Of a DNA stretch of 46,679 nucleotides, positions 3,816-17,025 are shown piece after piece. The position numbers and the translations under genes were made by a program. Numbering within the stretch: position 1 is the first letter of the stretch; each line of letters starts with the position of its first letter. Source of the stretch: Cytophagales bacterium. Its GTDB lineage: Bacteria > Bacteroidota > Bacteroidia > Cytophagales > Cyclobacteriaceae. Location of the stretch: positions 1-46,679 of the forward strand of contig JAKSDO010000034.1 of the NCBI GenBank assembly GCA_022360055.1, read 5' to 3'. Below the pieces are notes generated by a model. The model was not told the DNA's origin. It worked only from the letters and a program-made list of their open reading frames with translations, and made no database searches.

Positions 3816-5609
3816 TTACCATCCCGGATTTTGACCGAGGTTTGGATTTTGTGAAAGCGCACTTAATGGAAGCGGCCATAAATAGTGTTTGCTCTCGTCG
3901 AACAGGGGATTCTCGTAATCCGTACCTTGATAAACTTCAAGATATTCCACGCCATCAACCGTTGAATAACCTACGGTTACATCTCCTGTTGGATCAACCC
4001 GATCGCGGTTTGCCTGATCCCAACGCATGCCGTAATCCTTATTCTCAAGCATTTTACCCCATTTCCAGCGTCTCAGGTCATCATAGCGAAAGCCTTCCAT
4101 GAAGAGTTCCACCCTTCTTTCGCGACGTATTTCGACAATTAACGGATCGCCGTGCCAGGAGGTATACCGCGGATCTACCGGAACATTCGATATATCCAGA
4201 TGGGGCATGCTGACCCGATCGCGCAACAGATTGACGCTCACATCAAGATCAGCTTGAGTGATCGTTCCCAATTCTGCTTTGGCTTCGGCATAATTCAGCA
4301 ATGCTTCCGCAAACCTCATGGTGATCGCCGGGGTTTGTGAAGAGTTGTATGAAGCATGAGCGGTATTTACATCATACACCTTGATGATGTGGTACCCGGT
4401 ATAGGTTTTTTGCCCTCCTGGCATTCCCTGCACCCGAGGATAGGGATATACGTCAAAATCATGATTGCCATACCGGTAAATCGCCTGGTCCTCCGGATGC
4501 AAGATCGTTTGCCTCAGCCTTGGATCGCGATCTACAAAGATATCTTCGTACACGGCATCTCCCTTGTACAATGGCGAAAGGGTTATGGGCAGACCATCCG
4601 TGCAGAGATAGTCTTCGACCATGCTCTTGGTAGCACCTCCGTTGTATCCGCGGTGATAACTCTGTACGTGATTGGTAAAAATACCCCGCTCGTATCTTCT
4701 CCAGTAGATCACTTCCGGATTTCCGGTCAGATCATCCGGTATTCTGTGAAGGCCATTATAATTCCGGCCGTCCGGATCATTGGTATACAATGAATACGGT
4801 CCGTTATCCATCAACTCTTTAGCGGCATCGGCGGCTTCCTGCAACCACATATCCGCATCGGACCCGACCCCGTGATACTTGCGCCAGGTTCCCTCAAATA
4901 AGCAGACCCGCGATTTTACCAAAAGTGCTCCCCATCGGTTAATTCTTCCCGGGCCGCCGCCGTCTCCCCAATCGTCGGGAATCCACTGGCAAGCAAAATT
5001 CAGGTCTTCCAGAACTTTTTCCATGACAAGCTGCCGGTCATCCCGCTGTCCGTAGAGGATGTCTTCGTCGTCGACATTTAGCTCCGTATCGACCCATTGC
5101 GCCGCCCCGAATTTTGATATCTTATCGGCATAAAACCAACCGCGCATTAAACGCGCTTCGCCGATATATTTACTCCGGGCTTCATCCGAGACATTGGCAT
5201 TCCCATAATTATCCATACCGACATTAATCCCTCTTAAAAAGTTCCAACCTCTCCAACCATACCAAAAAGGATCGTTTGGAATGGTATGCCTGCCGGCGCG
5301 TACTTTTTGGTAATTGTTATGCCGGGAATGCCTTGGTGCAGTGTCGTCCGAAAATCCTGAAAGATGCCAAATCCCATATCGATGGCTGTCAAAACCATCG
5401 TCAAAGGCCATGAAAATCGGCACATCATTATCATTTCTGGCAAGATCATACAAACTATTGTTGTACACTGCCAGGTCGTTTTCCGTATTCCAGAAAGATT
5501 CGTTGCTGATCTCATCCAGCGGTTGTCGGTCTAAGAAGCTATCGTTGCAACCAAAGGACAACAATGTAGCAACAACAACCAGGCAAATTTTTATTATATC
5601 GTGTTTCAT
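3816..5609 (-). CDS. SusD/RagB-family outer-membrane glycan-binding lipoprotein
   Basis: A 597-residue lipoprotein with a signal peptide and lipobox LLSFGC (Cys21). It has the SusD-like layout: an N-terminal SusD-like segment beginning SFLDRQPLDEIS, TPR-like helices in the middle, and a C-terminal RagB/SusD end with ERRVELFMEGFRYDDLRRWKWG, a highly conserved family block, followed by LWPLPLSALSQNPNLGQNPGW. SusD proteins sit on the cell surface and lid the SusC channel to capture glycans. The partner SusC is directly upstream. The start is the ATG at 5609. The space between susC and susD is filled by two structured repeats (see 5610-5790), so translation of susD relative to susC may be altered. 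Confidence 0.95.
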   Translation of the reverse strand: MKHDIIKICLVVVATLLSFGCNDSFLDRQPLDEISNESFWNTENDLAVYNNSLYDLARNDNDVPIFMAFDDGFDSHRYGIWHLSGFSDDTAPRHSRHNNYQKVRAGRHTIPNDPFWYGWRGWNFLRGINVGMDNYGNANVSDEARSKYIGEARLMRGWFYADKISKFGAAQWVDTELNVDDEDILYGQRDDRQLVMEKVLEDLNFACQWIPDDWGDGGGPGRINRWGALLVKSRVCLFEGTWRKYHGVGSDADMWLQEAADAAKELMDNGPYSLYTNDPDGRNYNGLHRIPDDLTGNPEVIYWRRYERGIFTNHVQSYHRGYNGGATKSMVEDYLCTDGLPITLSPLYKGDAVYEDIFVDRDPRLRQTILHPEDQAIYRYGNHDFDVYPYPRVQGMPGGQKTYTGYHIIKVYDVNTAHASYNSSQTPAITMRFAEALLNYAEAKAELGTITQADLDVSVNLLRDRVSMPHLDISNVPVDPRYTSWHGDPLIVEIRRERRVELFMEGFRYDDLRRWKWGKMLENKDYGMRWDQANRDRVDPTGDVTVGYSTVDGVEYLEVYQGTDYENPLFDESKHYLWPLPLSALSQNPNLGQNPGW

Positions 5610-5700
5610 CTGTTTAAAATTTGTAGAAACCTCACCGTGCGCTGTTGATAATCATGATCTTGTGCATCTCAATAATTATCTCAGGCATGGCCTGTTTCAT
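5610..5700 (-). repeat. Structured start-codon element A, copy 1
   Basis: A 91-bp unit read on the minus strand, beginning ATGAAACAGG and ending AAACAG immediately before the susD ATG. It has a CAGGC-CAT-GCCTG hairpin near its start, a second hairpin GATAATTAT/ATGATTATC, and GAAAC/GTTTC outer arms. A second copy lies at 16935-17025 with about ten differences. In the second hairpin a T.G pair becomes C-G in the other copy. It directly follows element B. Confidence 0.8.
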
Positions 5701-5790
5701 CTGTTTATATTTTTTAAAGTTGCTGACACACAAAGAAATATAATCATGCTTGTGTGTGTCCAGAATTTGCTCCGGTCCTACCGGTTTCAT
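5632..5790 (-). other. Possible 52-codon leader ORF formed by elements B+A upstream of susD
   Basis: Elements B and A join in frame into one reading frame, from the ATG at 5790 to a TGA at 5632-5634, ending 22 bp before susD. A good ribosome-binding site (GGGAGAAAGA) lies directly before the ATG. The equivalent frames at the second locus are only 22 codons (A) and 14 codons (B). Most differences between copies change the amino acid, so a selected protein is unlikely. It could act as a translated leader coupling or attenuating susD translation. This is inference. Confidence 0.35.
5701..5790 (-). repeat. Structured start-codon element B, copy 1
   Basis: A 90-bp unit on the minus strand, beginning ATGAAACCGG and ending AAACAG at the ATG of element A. 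It has a perfect hairpin CCGGT-AGG-ACCGG, then a long hairpin GACACACAcAAG/CTTTGTGTGTC with one bulged base. The copy at 16846-16934 keeps the same bulge and shows an A-U to G-C compensatory change. It lies 20 bp after the susC stop, just after a purine-rich GGGAGAAAGA that probably was the original susD ribosome-binding site. Confidence 0.8.
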
Positions 5791-5810
5791 TCTTTCTCCC
5801 TTTTGAGTTA

Positions 5811-8800
5811 CTAGAATGTAATGTTCAAACCAAGAGAATAAATACGTTGCTTGTAGTATTCCTGAGTCAGTGTCGGTCTTACTTCAGGATCAAGCGGCTT
5901 ACGCATTTTGGTAGCTTCCCACAAATTCTCACCGGCAAAATAAATTCGCGTACTTACCATTCCGATCTTTCTGGAGATTTCAGGAGGCAGCGTATAGGCC
6001 AACGTCAGGTTTTTCAGCCGTATATAAGCCGCATTTTGCACGTACCTTGATTGCGGTTGCACATTTTGCTTGGTATTTGTTGAGATATGCGGATGAGGGA
6101 AGTATGCGCCCCGATTATCCTCGCTCCAGGTATCCGTAACATAGTACCATTCCACATGCCCGGCATTGAATGGATAGAACGCTACCCAGTTGTTATTGGG
6201 TGGCCAGTATTGATATTTCAGTGTCCCCTGAAAGAAGAGGTTTAATGTAAGCCCTTTCCATCCCAGGTTTCCATTCAGACCAAAGTTGTATCGGGGTTCT
6301 TCATTGGCAATGATTTTTAGATCACCGTGATCTTCCAGGGTGCGCTCTCCTTGTGTAATGGCATTATCTCCGTCGAGATCGGCATAGCGAATGTCGCCCG
6401 GCCGCCAGTTTGCTCCGTCGGGCACCTCCGACTGGTCCGGTGCATTGAGGACCTCCTCTTCGGTCTGGAATATCCCATAGGTTTCATATCCCCATCGGTC
6501 ACCTATTCTGTAACCCACATAATATTCATCAATCGAGCCGGTCGGATTATCGTACTTGGTAATCTCACTTACATTATCGGAAAACGCCAGGGTAACACCA
6601 TAGTTCCAATCCGTATTGATCCTGTCCTTCCAGGTGGCCGCCAACTCCCATCCGGAAGTCCGAAGGTCGGCGGCGTTTGCCTGTGGAGCCGATGTTCCCA
6701 GAATTTCCGGGTAGGTCACGTCGGTCAGCATATCCTTTGTATCTCGGGTATACACATCAAAGGATACATCCAATCGGCTGTTCAACATCGTAAAATCCAA
6801 ACCGATATTCCTGGTTACGACCGTTTCCCAGGTCAATGAAGGACTCACCAATCCGGCTGGCGACACAAAAGGTGTGCGTGATCCGCCCGACATCATGTAG
6901 GGAGAGGTTCCGGACCCCATGGTTGGAATATACGGATAATATATCGGGTTGTTATCCTCATCAAATAACAATTGATTTCCGAGCGTTCCGAATGATGCGC
7001 GAATCTTAAGGTTATCCAGCCAGTTGGCAGTTCCGCTCATGAACGACTCATTGGAGATTCTCCAGCCGACAGAGAAAGAAGGGAAAAACCCAAAACGATC
7101 GTCTTCGGGAAACCTGGATGTACCGTCATAGCGCCCGTTAGCTTCCAACAGGTACCGGTCCTTGAAAATATAATTCACGCGATAAAATACGCCGCGAAGC
7201 GCCACTTCCTCTTTACCTCCATAGGTTTCCTGATTGCCTGTGGTCGCATTCAAATCCGCTATCTGAGGGGTAATAAGACTAAAGGCTCTCGACCTTATAT
7301 ATTGGAAACGGCCCCACTCCTGGTTAAATCCAACCATGGCCTTTAAAAAATGTCCGTTGTCGTTGTCAATGGTATAGTCTGCGTATGTATTGAACACATA
7401 ATACTGATCGTTATCGGATCGGTTGTTTATGTAATCCGGGTTGCTGAATCCTTCTACGATATTCAGCGCATTCAGATCCTGATTTTCGATTACATTCACC
7501 TTACTCCGGACATCCTGGTCGTTAATGTTCGTAAAATTAGCAGAGAATTCCCCCCTGATATTCAATCCTTTTAACGGATTTAAGGTTACTCCCTGGGTCA
7601 ATATCAAATTGTTTCTTGTGAAGGTATCCCGCCCTCCTTGCTCGAGGTATGGCAGGAAGTTCACACTTTGAAAATGCATGCCGATGTATTGCTCGTATTC
7701 CTCGCGGTCCCCGGGGGTTTGGTAATACGGCAGATCCGGAAAAGTAAGGGGATTAATGGGATTTACCCGGGCAGTGGTGTTGATGTTCACATCCCAGTTG
7801 TAAAAATGCGGTTTGTCGCTATCTTCAATGGAAGCCATGGCCCGGCTGTCCATCCTTAGCCATTTATTGATCTCAAAATCACCTTTCGTCAGTATGTTGT
7901 ACCGTGTGAACTTTTCATTTTTATCTTTGTTTTTGAGATAGCCGTCTTTACTCAGATACCCGAAAGAAACATAATATGAAGCCTTATCGGTAGCGCCCGA
8001 AATATTAAAATCATATTTCTGCTGTGGGGCAAAATCCGTAATTATTTTATCCTGGTACTCATTATAACCATAGAAACGAAGTTGTCCGTTGTACACACCC
8101 CAGGCATTTTCTTCCGTAGGATTTTCACTCCACCTCTTTGTACCATCCAAATAGTCCTGGTCAAAACCATTGCCATTGGTACGATAGGTTGCCAGATCTC
8201 TTGCTAAGACATACTGATAAGGGTCCGTAATGGGATCGATAAACATAATGGGTTTTGCCGCGGCAAATTCAGCGTTGAAAGAAAGATTGATTTTATCTCC
8301 TTGCTTTCCCTTTTTTGTCTCGACCAGAATCACACCGAAAGCTGCTCTGGCTCCGTATACGGCCGAGGCCGCCGCATCTTTTAATACACTGATATTTTCA
8401 ATATCATTCGGATTTAATCTGTTGATGTCCATCGGCACACCATCTACCAGGATCAATGGATTACCTCCGTTGATCGATTCATATCCGCGAATGTTGAAAT
8501 CCGTCCTTGCATCTGCGGGATCGCCATTTCGAATCGTGATGTTCAGGTTTGGGATCACTCCTTGCAAACCGTTACCCACGTTGACAATCGGTCTGCTTTC
8601 CAGGACTTCTCCTTTCGCGACTCCGACAGCTCCGGTCAGGTTTACTTTTTGCTGGGTACCGTACCCGACCACAACGATTTCTTCAAGCGCCGTGACATCC
8701 GCTGCTAACGTAAGATCTATTACGGTTTGAGTACCAATAGCAACTTCCTGGGTTACAAATCCGACCGAGCTGAATACCAGGGAGGTTCCGTCTTCCGGTA

Positions 8801-9341
8801 CATTTAAGGAGTAATTGCCATCGATATTCGTAACAGTTCCTGTCGAAGTTCCTTTGACGATTACGTTTACACCGGGCAGGGCAGAATTATCTTCCGAAGA
8901 CAAAACTGTTCCCGTGACTGTTCGCCCTTGAATAACCTCGATCTGTTTTGCTTTTGCATTGCGTGAGACGGCTTTGACGTGGATGTTGTTATTAACTTGC
9001 TTAAATTCGACATCCGCATCCCTGGCAATTTCGAGAAGTATTAAATCCAGTGCTTTGTTTCTAGCCTTTACATTAATACCTTTCCTTCTCAATAGGTCTC
9101 TTTCTTCAAACGTAAAGCTCAAAGAAGTCTCCGATTCAATCGTTTTGATTGCGTCTTCCAGAGATGCATCCCGGAGTTTCACAGAAATGGTTATGTCCCT
9201 CAGGCTTTCATATTGTGCTACTCCTTCGTTAGCCAATAGTGCTGTCATGCACACCAATAGGACAACAAATCCATAAATTGTTCTTTTTGCGACCATAATT
9301 AATAGTCTGAGTAAATCATTTTTCATAACTTTGCACTTCAT
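5811..9341 (-). CDS. SusC/RagA TonB-dependent transporter with STN transducer domain
   Basis: A 1176-residue outer-membrane transporter. It has a hydrophobic signal (residues ~20-42), then an STN domain (~45-105, ending KQVNNNIHVKA) as found in TonB receptors that signal to FecR anti-sigma factors. A CarboxypepD_reg-like domain follows (~125-210, LPGVNVIVKGTSTGT), then the TonB box region EEIVVVGYGTQ, a plug with ILVDGVPMDINRLNPNDIEN and SVLKDAAASAVYGARA, and a beta-barrel ending in Phe (SLGLNITF). It imports oligosaccharides with SusD. FecR and an ECF sigma gene lie immediately upstream on the same strand, giving a complete sigma/anti-sigma/transducer set. The start is ATG 9341; an internal ATG at residue 6 is also possible. 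Confidence 0.96.
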   Translation of the reverse strand: MKCKVMKNDLLRLLIMVAKRTIYGFVVLLVCMTALLANEGVAQYESLRDITISVKLRDASLEDAIKTIESETSLSFTFEERDLLRRKGINVKARNKALDLILLEIARDADVEFKQVNNNIHVKAVSRNAKAKQIEVIQGRTVTGTVLSSEDNSALPGVNVIVKGTSTGTVTNIDGNYSLNVPEDGTSLVFSSVGFVTQEVAIGTQTVIDLTLAADVTALEEIVVVGYGTQQKVNLTGAVGVAKGEVLESRPIVNVGNGLQGVIPNLNITIRNGDPADARTDFNIRGYESINGGNPLILVDGVPMDINRLNPNDIENISVLKDAAASAVYGARAAFGVILVETKKGKQGDKINLSFNAEFAAAKPIMFIDPITDPYQYVLARDLATYRTNGNGFDQDYLDGTKRWSENPTEENAWGVYNGQLRFYGYNEYQDKIITDFAPQQKYDFNISGATDKASYYVSFGYLSKDGYLKNKDKNEKFTRYNILTKGDFEINKWLRMDSRAMASIEDSDKPHFYNWDVNINTTARVNPINPLTFPDLPYYQTPGDREEYEQYIGMHFQSVNFLPYLEQGGRDTFTRNNLILTQGVTLNPLKGLNIRGEFSANFTNINDQDVRSKVNVIENQDLNALNIVEGFSNPDYINNRSDNDQYYVFNTYADYTIDNDNGHFLKAMVGFNQEWGRFQYIRSRAFSLITPQIADLNATTGNQETYGGKEEVALRGVFYRVNYIFKDRYLLEANGRYDGTSRFPEDDRFGFFPSFSVGWRISNESFMSGTANWLDNLKIRASFGTLGNQLLFDEDNNPIYYPYIPTMGSGTSPYMMSGGSRTPFVSPAGLVSPSLTWETVVTRNIGLDFTMLNSRLDVSFDVYTRDTKDMLTDVTYPEILGTSAPQANAADLRTSGWELAATWKDRINTDWNYGVTLAFSDNVSEITKYDNPTGSIDEYYVGYRIGDRWGYETYGIFQTEEEVLNAPDQSEVPDGANWRPGDIRYADLDGDNAITQGERTLEDHGDLKIIANEEPRYNFGLNGNLGWKGLTLNLFFQGTLKYQYWPPNNNWVAFYPFNAGHVEWYYVTDTWSEDNRGAYFPHPHISTNTKQNVQPQSRYVQNAAYIRLKNLTLAYTLPPEISRKIGMVSTRIYFAGENLWEATKMRKPLDPEVRPTLTQEYYKQRIYSLGLNITF

Positions 9342-13671: not shown

Positions 13672-16600
13672 TTAATAACCAATTAAACTAAAATCCTCAA
13701 ACAACCCGTAATCCATTAAATCGTACGCTGTGCCCGCCGGTTGACGGGCCTGGCCCTTAAAGAAACTCCATGGAGTTACAAAACCTCGTTCCGGATTGAA
13801 GTGATGCGGCCCCATTAGGTTTTTGAGGCTTCCGGTTACGATCACCTCCACCAGATTTTCGCCTTCCTTCAAATGTTCTGAGATGTCGAGCTCAAACGGT
13901 CGCCACGCCACGATGCCTGCAGATGTACCGTTCACTTTTACCTCGGCCACAGTACCTGCCCAATCGTTCAGCTTTACTTTTACCCGGTCATTCGATGTAT
14001 GCATAAACGTTTTTGAATAAGAGATGCCGTGCGCATAAAACGGCAGGCCCTGCCGCTTCCAACTGCCCGGGCAAACGAGCGTATCTGCACTCAAAAGCCA
14101 TCCTTTTCTGATAGATTCGACCTTGAAGTCGCCCACGAGGTATATTGGCTCCACTTCGGCAAGTATGTCCATTCGGGGGGCAGTGAGGCTGATTACATTG
14201 TCCCCGGATTGCAGGTTTCCGGAAAGATCAAAAACTCCAAAGCTCTTATCCAGCCACCACGCTCCGGGTTTCGGAGCTATTTTTTGTCGGTTGATGCGGA
14301 CCTCATAAAAATGCGGCCACTCCACAACCGCTTCTAAGGCAACGGGATCAAATCCGTGCTCAATTTGAAAATGATAGCTCACCTCGAACCCCGAAGCACT
14401 GTCAAAATTATTCTTGTCCAGAATCCGGGATCTATACTGGACCGCATTGCTCCAGGGGTTGTAGTTGAATCCGTATATTTCCTTCAGATAGGTTTCGTAG
14501 ATGGTTTCAGCGGCATTGTAAAAATACATATCCTTATACGTTTTTCCTTCAATTGCCAGGTCGCAATAGTCCAGCGTAAGTGTATTTGGCTCGAGCCGCT
14601 TTGCCATGGCCGGCGAAGTTTCCAATTCTTTTCCCTGCGGTCCGGGCTGCAGGCTTATTTGCTTGCCGCTTTCTCCGGCCCCGGAGAAAAACAACAGCTT
14701 TGAACCCGAAGGATGCAATTGAAAACTCAAATGAATCATTCCGTCAACGGGCTTTGCCTCAACGACAAAATACGTTCCGGATAACGGATCAAACTCAATC
14801 ACGCTTTTCCCTTTCCCGCTAAACGAGATGCTTGCGATTTCCTCCTTATCATAGTTTGTAAAAAAAAGGAGTTGCCCGTCTTTAAGTATCCTCCTGTGAT
14901 GGAAAACATTCCCGCCCCAGTTCTCAGGATCTTTTGCCACAAAATCCGATTCACTCAAATGCCGATCGATCATATCATCATCCATTTCATCGGCCATGAT
15001 CCATTGGTCGGCATATTGTCCGAGCTTTTCTGTCATGGACTGTGAACGGTTACCATCCAATCTTTCCGGGATGCCGGACATGGAAATTATCCTGCCGCCA
15101 TGCGCAAGGTAGTCCAGCAACAACAAATAGGTAGAATCCATCAGGTTTTCAAACATCGGAGGAAGCACTATGAGATCGTAAGCTCTGGAGCCGATCACAA
15201 ATTTGTTTCCCCGAACTGCCCCGTGACTTTTTATAATACTTTCACAGCCCAAATCATATTCTATTTGTCTGTTTTCCAACTTTTTCAATAAGCTATGAAA
15301 TTGATCTTTCAACTCGTAGATTGATCGTGAGGCGGTTCCTATAGCTTTTTCCCGGATCGGCGAATACAACATCCAGCTTGTCGAGGTCGGTTCCATGACC
15401 AGGATCCGGTTCACCTGTTTTCCCGCTGACAAGGCGAAGGAAAGCCTGTGGAAGTACTCATTGAGCGGTTTATAGTTGTCCCACCAGGGCGTATGATACG
15501 ACATCGATTGCGGATAATCACGCTTTCTGGCTCCCTTCAACGTCATATGAGACAAATGCTGGTTGAGGAAATTTACGCCCAGGACGTATTCCCAGTCTCC
15601 CAGCCTTTTCATATCGTTAAAGGTGAGTTCCCAACCTGCGCCGCCATATGTTTCCGACAGTGCCCGTGATTTATCCAGTTGATTCACCACACTGCTCAAT
15701 TCCTTTACCGCCCGTATGTTGCCAAACTGATCCGGCCTGCTGTCGGTATTAAACAACATATCGATCCCAGGATATTGATGGTAAGCATACATTGCCATAT
15801 TGTCACCACCATGCTTGGGGTCGGGCCAGCCGTGCTCCCAATAGTGTCCGGTCCATTTCAGGTGATGCGCATCGGTGTACTCATTCCAGGGTTTTGACCA
15901 ACGTTCGAGAAACAGATCGAGCAGCATGGAATAATAGTCATGGCGCACATTTTTCCAATCGCCGATTTCATCATAGAGGCAGGGTAAATATGTTTGAAGC
16001 TGATAACCGTATTTTTTTTCAAAGCGATTGAACAACACAGGCGTGAAGCGAATGACAGAACCCGAACCGCCAATGGTGCTAATGTTTGGCTCATCCGTGA
16101 AAATTCCCGGCATGGTTTTGCCAAATTCGTCTCCGATGTACTCCTCATATCCGTCCATGGTAAGCTTAATGAATTTCTCGGTGATTCCATAGGCCAGCAA
16201 ATCGACATACGAATATCCGCCATACCAACCCTGACCTTTTGGATAATACCACTTGGTAAACGCGTAGTATTTCCCGGGCTGGTTTACATACTTCATTCTA
16301 CTGTTGGTAATATTGGCAAAACTGTTTCCCACTTGCTTTATGATCAGGAAGTACCGGTTGGTATCACTTTCACTTAAAACTTCCAATCTATGTAAATTGA
16401 GACCGGCCACAGGATCCGAGGCCGAAAAAGTTGCGGCGGGCACATGTCCGCCGGCAAAGCCGCTGGGGTATGAGTTTTCATCGTAAAGCCAGATTTTCAT
16501 ATTCAATGCCCGGGCTTTGTTTACGGAATATTCTACAAGCTCGAACCATTCCTTGCCCAGGTATTCGGTAATCAAACCGGGCCTTGGATGAATAAACACC

Positions 16601-16845
16601 ATATGAATGCCTTTTTTCTTGAATTCCTCCAGTTGAAAGTCTATTTTTTCTTCCGTCACCCTGTCGTTCCAGACCCAGAAAGGGGCCGTGCTAAAATCAA
16701 TTGGCGGCGCCCTGAAACCTGCTTTCAATTCCTCCAGGCTGTTGGCCATTTCCGGATTCCAGTTGAGATGCCGGTCGACACCGGTATCGCAAGAAGAATA
16801 GATAATAATGCTTAGGAAGCAGATAAAAAAACTTATATTTTTCAT
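13672..16845 (-). CDS. GH106-like secreted glycoside hydrolase (putative alpha-L-rhamnosidase group)
   Basis: I take the ATG at 16845 (MKNISFFICF), giving 1057 residues; the frame stays open upstream only because it reads into element B. There is a lipoprotein signal peptide (IIYSSC, Cys19). Residues 55-60 (PFWVWN), 79-90 (GIHMVFIHPRPG) and 120-133 (LYDENSYPSGFAGG) match the N-terminal barrel of GH106-type hydrolases, with further blocks GIFTDEPN and SETYGGAGWELTF. The C-terminus has a galactose-binding-like sandwich (LNDWAGTVAEVKVNG, WRPFELDI). GH106 includes alpha-L-rhamnosidases, but many relatives are uncharacterised. Elements A and B lie exactly at its start codon. Confidence 0.85.
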   Translation of the reverse strand: MKNISFFICFLSIIIYSSCDTGVDRHLNWNPEMANSLEELKAGFRAPPIDFSTAPFWVWNDRVTEEKIDFQLEEFKKKGIHMVFIHPRPGLITEYLGKEWFELVEYSVNKARALNMKIWLYDENSYPSGFAGGHVPAATFSASDPVAGLNLHRLEVLSESDTNRYFLIIKQVGNSFANITNSRMKYVNQPGKYYAFTKWYYPKGQGWYGGYSYVDLLAYGITEKFIKLTMDGYEEYIGDEFGKTMPGIFTDEPNISTIGGSGSVIRFTPVLFNRFEKKYGYQLQTYLPCLYDEIGDWKNVRHDYYSMLLDLFLERWSKPWNEYTDAHHLKWTGHYWEHGWPDPKHGGDNMAMYAYHQYPGIDMLFNTDSRPDQFGNIRAVKELSSVVNQLDKSRALSETYGGAGWELTFNDMKRLGDWEYVLGVNFLNQHLSHMTLKGARKRDYPQSMSYHTPWWDNYKPLNEYFHRLSFALSAGKQVNRILVMEPTSTSWMLYSPIREKAIGTASRSIYELKDQFHSLLKKLENRQIEYDLGCESIIKSHGAVRGNKFVIGSRAYDLIVLPPMFENLMDSTYLLLLDYLAHGGRIISMSGIPERLDGNRSQSMTEKLGQYADQWIMADEMDDDMIDRHLSESDFVAKDPENWGGNVFHHRRILKDGQLLFFTNYDKEEIASISFSGKGKSVIEFDPLSGTYFVVEAKPVDGMIHLSFQLHPSGSKLLFFSGAGESGKQISLQPGPQGKELETSPAMAKRLEPNTLTLDYCDLAIEGKTYKDMYFYNAAETIYETYLKEIYGFNYNPWSNAVQYRSRILDKNNFDSASGFEVSYHFQIEHGFDPVALEAVVEWPHFYEVRINRQKIAPKPGAWWLDKSFGVFDLSGNLQSGDNVISLTAPRMDILAEVEPIYLVGDFKVESIRKGWLLSADTLVCPGSWKRQGLPFYAHGISYSKTFMHTSNDRVKVKLNDWAGTVAEVKVNGTSAGIVAWRPFELDISEHLKEGENLVEVIVTGSLKNLMGPHHFNPERGFVTPWSFFKGQARQPAGTAYDLMDYGLFEDFSLIGY

Positions 16846-16934
16846 GTGTTTATGTTTTTTAGTTTGCTGACGCACAGAGCAATGTAATCCTACTCATGCG
16901 TGTCCTGAATTTGCTCCGGTCCTACCGGTTTCAT
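16846..16934 (-). repeat. Structured start-codon element B, copy 2
   Basis: An 89-bp unit on the minus strand, ATGAAACCGG to AAACAC, ending right at the ATG of the GH106-like gene. It keeps the CCGGT-AGG-ACCGG hairpin unchanged. The long hairpin is GACACGCAtGAG/CTCTGTGCGTC: the bulge position is retained, one A-U pair has become G-C, one has become G.U and one A.C. It is roughly 80-85% identical to copy 1. Its own frame is only 14 codons. Confidence 0.8.
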
Positions 16935-17025
16935 GTGTTTAAAATTTGCAGAAACCTCACCATGTGCTGTTGATCATCATGATCCAGTGTATCTCAATGA
17001 TTATCCCAGGCATGGCCTGTTTCAT
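16935..17025 (-). repeat. Structured start-codon element A, copy 2
   Basis: A 91-bp unit on the minus strand, ATGAAACAGG to AAACAC, placed before element B here but after it at the susD locus. The first hairpin CAGGC-CAT-GCCTG is identical; the second is GATAATCAT/ATGATGATC. Upstream of it the sequence is A-rich ordinary intergenic DNA (TAAATACCCTA). Confidence 0.8.

Follow-up and report, generated by a model that had tools for sequence, protein, structure and literature searches.

Two arrays of 90-bp units at gene starts

The window, by which we mean the whole 46,679-nt stretch analyzed (contig JAKSDO010000034.1), contains two arrays of ∼90-bp units, at 5610 to 5790 and 16846 to 17025, each of which abuts the ATGAAA of a gene. 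We distinguish two unit types by alignment, A (beginning ATGAAACCGG) and B (beginning ATGAAACAGG); our A apparently corresponds to element B of a preliminary description of this DNA, and vice versa. The two types are homologous, and a profile built on A picks up B as well. At the first locus, read on the minus strand from 5790 to 5610, an A unit (ATGAAACCGG...AAACAG, 90 nt; 5701 to 5790) is followed by a B unit (91 nt; 5610 to 5700) and then directly by the ATGAAAC of a SusD/RagB-family gene (minus strand, 3816 to 5609). Upstream lies the gene for a SusC-like TonB-dependent receptor (minus strand, 5811 to 9341), whose stop is 20 nt from the array; these 20 nt contain GGGAGAAAGA, in agreement with the short gap and ribosome-binding site noted previously upstream of the elements.

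At the second locus, on the minus strand from 17025 to 16846, the order is reversed: a B unit (16935 to 17025) precedes an A unit (89 nt; 16846 to 16934), which directly abuts ATGAAAAAT of a GH106-like gene (minus strand, 13672 to 16845; 1,057 aa). We place the start of this gene at the ATGAAA 3′ of the array; the listed ORF starts at a GTG 30 nt upstream, within the A unit. The preliminary description thus correctly saw two structured repeats of this size exactly at gene starts, in opposite order at the susD-like (A-B) and GH106-like (B-A) loci, once the swapped names are allowed for.

Copy number and distribution

The further copies that the preliminary description proposed looking for are numerous. 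Within the draft genome, 7.55 Mb in total, a 201-bp query gave at least 55 matches, all with E values of ≤3.7 × 10−17 (40 of 281 candidates scored); an A model gave at least 156 (150 of 5,270 candidates scored, a lower bound) and a B model at least 66. Rates were taken from a 1.605-Mb sample comprising the window and pieces of 14 contigs with hits to the 201-bp query or the A model; because all sampled contigs had hits, unit density in this sample is biased upward. Here 59 arrays were recovered with nhmmer (E ≤ 0.01), made up of 83 units, of which 66 are A and 17 are B. By composition, the arrays are A (n = 38), AB (n = 6), AA (n = 6), BA (n = 3), and B (n = 2), with a single example of each of ABAB, ABB, BAA, and AAB. 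Arrays picked earlier with an AB query were left out of all rates. Several contigs of the draft (C191, C198, C196, C66, and C242) begin within or beside units, and breaks in the assembly are probably due to these repeats.

The AB query matched 8 of 39 genomes: the source genome, four of its genus (G001, G003, G004, and G005), and three of the family (G015, G020, and G022), with one copy in G015 and one weak match in G020. For the remaining congeners, G002 and G006, the A model found no match in either, and the B model found one weak match in G006 (E = 0.001) and none in G002. Across 390 genomes of the order only the source genome matched, a weak negative because two candidates were scored per genome and the query was close to the source species. 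No unit was matched in the phages and plasmids searched, and a pattern scan for units returned four stretches.

Two of the family genomes deserve separate mention. The single unit in G015 (C88:7364-7458; L051/L076) is near the A type of the source genome, belongs to another genus, and is followed by another short A-unit piece; it represents either a transfer or a binning error. Splendidivirga corallicola (G022:C33, L074), placed by NCBI in the Splendidivirgaceae, Cytophagales, carries the 5′ part of a B-like unit at an ATGAAA that adjoins an apparent ORF end, not a start.

Placement at ATGAAA

An ATGAAA lies at the 3′ boundary of 47 of the 59 arrays, at offset 0 in 43, −1 in 3, and +4 in 1; for comparison with the 43 arrays sharing one exact offset, the per-position frequency of the hexamer is 8.9 × 10−4. 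Forty of these 47 boundaries open an ORF of ≥40 aa (39 of them ≥80 aa), and the other 7 open no ORF of 40 aa, one (C66:24) being cut by a contig end. The 12 arrays lacking the boundary hexamer comprise six with ATG plus other letters, one with ACGAAA, three 5′ fragments, and two in which the site is lost. The boundaries of these six read ATGAAG (twice), ATGAAT, ATGAGA, ATGACA, and ATGGAA, and all six arrays have ATGAAA at their own 5′ end. This 5′ hexamer thus probably belongs to the element itself and is less likely to be re-supplied target sequence. Insertion into ATGAAA with re-supply of the same letters, as originally proposed, is accordingly borne out in its exact placement at the hexamer and less so in its account of the 5′ copy.

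No array of the 59 lies within a stop-to-stop ORF of ≥200 aa, and none stands in the opposite orientation before a start (no TTTCAT within 8 nt of the 5′ end). Using crude gene calls (1,296 genes), we sorted all ATGAAA sites in the sample: 40 array boundaries versus 259 free sites were start-like, 7 versus 295 were intergenic and nonstart, and 0 versus 2,189 were coding and nonstart (start versus intergenic, P = 2.1 × 10−7). Thus, 40 of 299 ATGAAA starts in the sample (13%) bear an array. The base after the hexamer is A in 31 of the 36 element-bearing starts used versus 120 of 213 others (P = 7 × 10−4). The target is better described as a preference for ATGAAA than as a strict requirement for a start codon; we believe that the bias toward starts is explained by selection. 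The 40 downstream proteins, judged from sequence without full annotation, look functionally mixed and do not seem to share one function.

Empty sites at orthologous genes

Empty sites in relatives, which the preliminary description had suggested seeking, were found at four genes other than the two of the window. Adenosine kinase orthologs from six congeners are 68 to 81% identical. Their starts have no unit in G002, G003, G004, and G006, one (81 nt) in G001, and two in G005, and the source genome carries four (ABAB); wherever units occur, they immediately precede ATGAAAAA. The units stand between the native leader and the ATGAAA: a promoter-like stretch and the leader up to the insertion point are common to G005, G001, G002, and G003; the upstream region of the source genome aligns poorly, and G006 carries another small insert. 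At trpD, the source genome has a BA array, and G001, G002, G003, and G006 have none in the 300 to 330 nt read; no trpD ortholog was found in G004 or G005.

The other two genes bear on the boundary itself. In a wcaF-like gene, a unit is followed by ATGAGA; all six congeners are unit-free in 175 nt and begin MGK, MAK, MK, MTAK, MAE, and MAN. Because these starts vary, an ATGAAA target is doubtful here, and the case would favor an element that owns its 5′ ATGAAA. In an iron-sulfur protein gene, a unit is followed by ATGGAA; the four congeners read are all unit-free, and their starts are ATGAAA (three) or ATGAAG (one), so a later mutation to ATGGAA is possible. Comparison of these species at orthologous genes leads us to infer that units have moved, probably recently. 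Neither of the first two outcomes named as counting against the preliminary description, a genome with just two copies and orthologs of relatives sharing them in place, occurred.

How such movement would look if the units were classical miniature inverted-repeat elements (MITEs) can be set against these data. A DDE transposase duplicating a 6-bp ATGAAA target would account for the hexamer found on both sides of most arrays. However, the unit ends in our alignments, ATGAAAC and AAACAG, bear no inverted-repeat relation to one another; the six arrays ending at ATG plus other letters have unequal flanking hexamers (ATGAAA 5′, other letters 3′); and, although the ATGGAA case may reflect later mutation, the congener starts of the wcaF-like gene make duplication of an ATGAAA target there questionable. 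We consider this origin unlikely.

Hairpins and leader properties

A units have two hairpins, and the folds of B units differ from copy to copy. In the A unit of the susD-like array, the short hairpin 1 (5 bp, 3-nt loop; minus strand, 5772 to 5784) was assigned from the fold and from pair swaps across unit types, and the long hairpin 2, with one bulged base (minus strand, 5725 to 5760), from the fold, with weak covariation. Columns 8 and 18 of hairpin 1 swap C-G for A-T between unit types and are paired in 52 of 58 distinct sequences, against 0.57 expected if independent; columns 11 and 15 are paired in 47 of 58, against 0.70 expected. RNAalifold on A units retains hairpin 1 only. Hairpin 2 has 86.1% of cells paired over 40 A units. 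For both helices together, 88.6% of cells are paired, compared with 87.9% after shuffling (30 of 500 shuffles reach this value). The covariation score, reached by 8 of 500 shuffles, and the number of cells changed on both sides, reached by 15 of 500, are toward the high end, but further pair types do not exceed the shuffled level (matched or surpassed in 450 of 500). Pairing support is good for the short hairpin only, and long-stem covariation is weak.

The comparison of pairing with shuffled sequence, which the preliminary description had called for, therefore splits: the column swaps of hairpin 1 support the structure, and the further pair types over both helices do not. The compensatory A-U to G-C change that it reported in the long hairpin was not upheld, since the changes fall on different pairs and yield one G-U and one unpaired A/C in the fold of the second copy. 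Its expectation that insertion leaves the gene intact behind a structured leader is supported by the ORFs opened at most ATGAAA boundaries and by the two hairpins of A.

When eight single units were folded as RNA, z scores ranged from −0.58 to −3.64. The 20 nt 5′ of the ATG are 58% A at element-bearing starts versus 42% at other ATGAAA starts, and the unpaired fraction from −15 to +12 is 0.682 versus 0.526; right around the ATG the difference (0.560 versus 0.524) is not significant (P = 0.09). Native leaders with the array left out have an unpaired fraction of 0.573, on a shorter window. Bacteroidota rarely depend on Shine-Dalgarno sites. A second palindromic repeat (CCTGCCTG...CAGG type) occurs inside some units, in G003 (L097, L078, and L085), G005 (L059/L099), and the source genome (L033); it sits in the hairpin 1 loop in G003 and G005 and deeper in the unit in L033.

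These features raise the question of whether the units are a cis-regulatory RNA leader that selection keeps in a regulon and that spread because it is regulatory. Their constant leader position at starts, the paired changes that maintain hairpin 1, the lower pairing from −15 to +12, and the A-rich 20 nt before the ATG are all consistent with such a leader, but the downstream genes look functionally mixed, congener orthologs lack units, Rfam gave no match (whole window at the gathering threshold; 5580 to 5820 at E ≤ 1), pairing immediately around the ATG does not differ, and the long stem covaries weakly; we regard this explanation as improbable. Still less credible is a coding module, in which the upstream ATG would start either a small conserved peptide or an extension of the protein's N terminus. 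The ATG frame of A units does have fewer stops than the other two (mean, 0.83 versus 2.15 and 1.95), and it runs open along the whole unit in 30 of 78 A units. However, the other 48 contain a stop, the frame in B usually ends at codon 23, and variability does not peak at third codon positions (bits at positions 1/2/3, 0.511/0.365/0.453 for A and 0.300/0.210/0.217 for B), so we do not interpret the units as peptides.

Search for a mobilizing enzyme

We found 73 Y1 transposase matches across the 16 genomes searched. None of the 32 that were read, including all 4 of the source genome, has a unit beside it (1.5-kb flanks or to the contig end, E < 0.2). Nineteen Y1 loci were checked by eye, and four of them had no gene readable by motif. 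Y1 matches do not track the units across genomes: they occur in 14 of 16 genomes, unit-free ones included, and G015 has one unit and no Y1 match. A link to REP sequences and their RAYT transposases was likewise rejected, given the 32 unit-free loci and the different palindromes at the RAYT-like genes of the source genome.

Those two RAYT-like genes (L048 in C265 and L049 in C59), recognized by NHIH and Y[VI]HNNP motifs, each lie beside distinct palindromes that are unrelated to A and B and constitute further REP-like families in this genome. In G003 (C84, L144), the region 3′ of a RAYT-like gene contains a tandem duplication of ∼100 bp that includes an ATGAAAC gene start as well as a palindrome of the type found at the Y1 gene itself; this is another repeat that re-supplies a start.

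The bottom strand of the A consensus reads TTTCAT, a T-rich stretch, TTTGCT, hairpin, CTGAA, TTTGCT, hairpin, TTTCAT. TTTGCT thus precedes both hairpins, a regularity noticed post hoc (chance of ∼5 × 10−4 by composition); the two hexamers do not vary together. In IS200/IS605 elements, guides at the feet of hairpins choose the cleavage sites, as outlined in PMC5934647, and the A layout, with equal guides and equal cleavage sites, recalls the ends of such elements by analogy. IS608-like guide pairing is not evident: under the rule as we derived it from PMC5934647, the TGCT 5′ of the hairpins does not match TTTCAT.

Relation to known systems

Among the closest known systems are the IS200/IS605 family and its nonautonomous derivatives, the PATEs (PMC3119063). 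As IS608 is portrayed in PMC5934647, the units share with it a fixed short target kept in one flank, a fixed orientation, subterminal hairpins (imperfect in the units), and no evident target duplication. They differ in that the guide-pairing rule as we derived it (PMC5934647) seems not to hold, their target falls at start codons, and no transposase gene with unit ends was seen among the 32 of 73 Y1 matches read. REPs and REPtrons, in the account of PMC6006769, resemble the units: they are structured extragenic repeats, present in many copies, whose mobility in trans is attributed to a Y1 protein encoded by one gene copy. In the same source, TnpA_REP (RAYT) subclass 2.6 of Bacteroidetes has atypical structures on its flanks, copies of which occur at other places in the genome. 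The units, in contrast, are 90 bp with two hairpins, end at ATGAAA, and are absent beside the Y1 loci read. At the 5′ foot of hairpin 1 stands ATGAAA (top strand) or TTTGCT (bottom strand), not the REP tetranucleotide GT[AG]G, a feature that does not apply to subclass 2.6.

The TAACTGA repeats described in PMC4679880 also lie a few bases upstream of the start codons of unrelated genes, in some Bacteroidetes among others, but these are heptamers in direct repeats, whereas our units are structured, 90 bp long, and have ATGAAA at each boundary.

Rickettsia palindromic elements are hairpin-forming repeats that genes tolerate in frame inside them; our arrays differ from these in-gene elements in their absence from long ORFs. 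The preliminary description knew of no element with this habit, and we likewise found no description of one in open-licence PMC papers.

A probable mobile repeat that docks at start codons

Considering the dispersal of the units, their exact boundary, the empty and additive sites at orthologous starts, the single orientation, and the absence from long-ORF interiors, we think it probable that they are a nonautonomous, target-specific mobile repeat of ∼90 bp, similar to REPs or MITEs, whose insertions lie immediately 5′ of an ATG and share a single orientation. ATGAAA followed by A would be preferred, and the element would bring its own ATGAAAC at its 5′ end. Insertion would disturb neither the start codon downstream nor the native promoter and leader upstream. 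The gene would therefore survive, and its new leader of ∼90 nt would comprise two hairpins, one additional ATG, and, just ahead of the gene's own ATG, a tail rich in A. Because each unit starts with the preferred target, a later copy could land before a resident one and produce head-to-tail arrays. Local duplication probably also enlarges arrays, since A-unit identity is higher within arrays (mean, 0.873; 13 pairs, 0.784 to 0.967) than between them (0.829). Copies in coding ATGAAA sites would be removed by selection, and copies elsewhere would decay.

As to what moves such a repeat, we tentatively suggest a single-strand transposase (Y1/HUH, of the IS200/IS605 or REP kind) acting in trans. It is conceivable, though somewhat short of an even prospect, that the mobile repeat is specialized for start codons: the very common ATG AAA A start of the host would be its target, its own end would repeat that start, and its A-rich tail would serve as a portable translation start. 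Under such specialization, it would insert where it does least harm and would have replaced the leader of about one-eighth of ATGAAA-starting genes in the sample. Alternatively, units could be common at starts because selection favors a leader that is useful.

Related bacteria of marine type thus look to carry many copies of a seemingly undescribed kind of mobile repeat, one that supplies new leaders to unrelated genes. If this is true, it would be a clear case of a bacterial repeat made nearly harmless by its choice of target, docking at start codons, and its mobilizing enzyme would be a start-codon-directed DNA integrase. The element-bearing genes would also provide a large set of natural experiments on the effects of leaders on expression in Bacteroidota.
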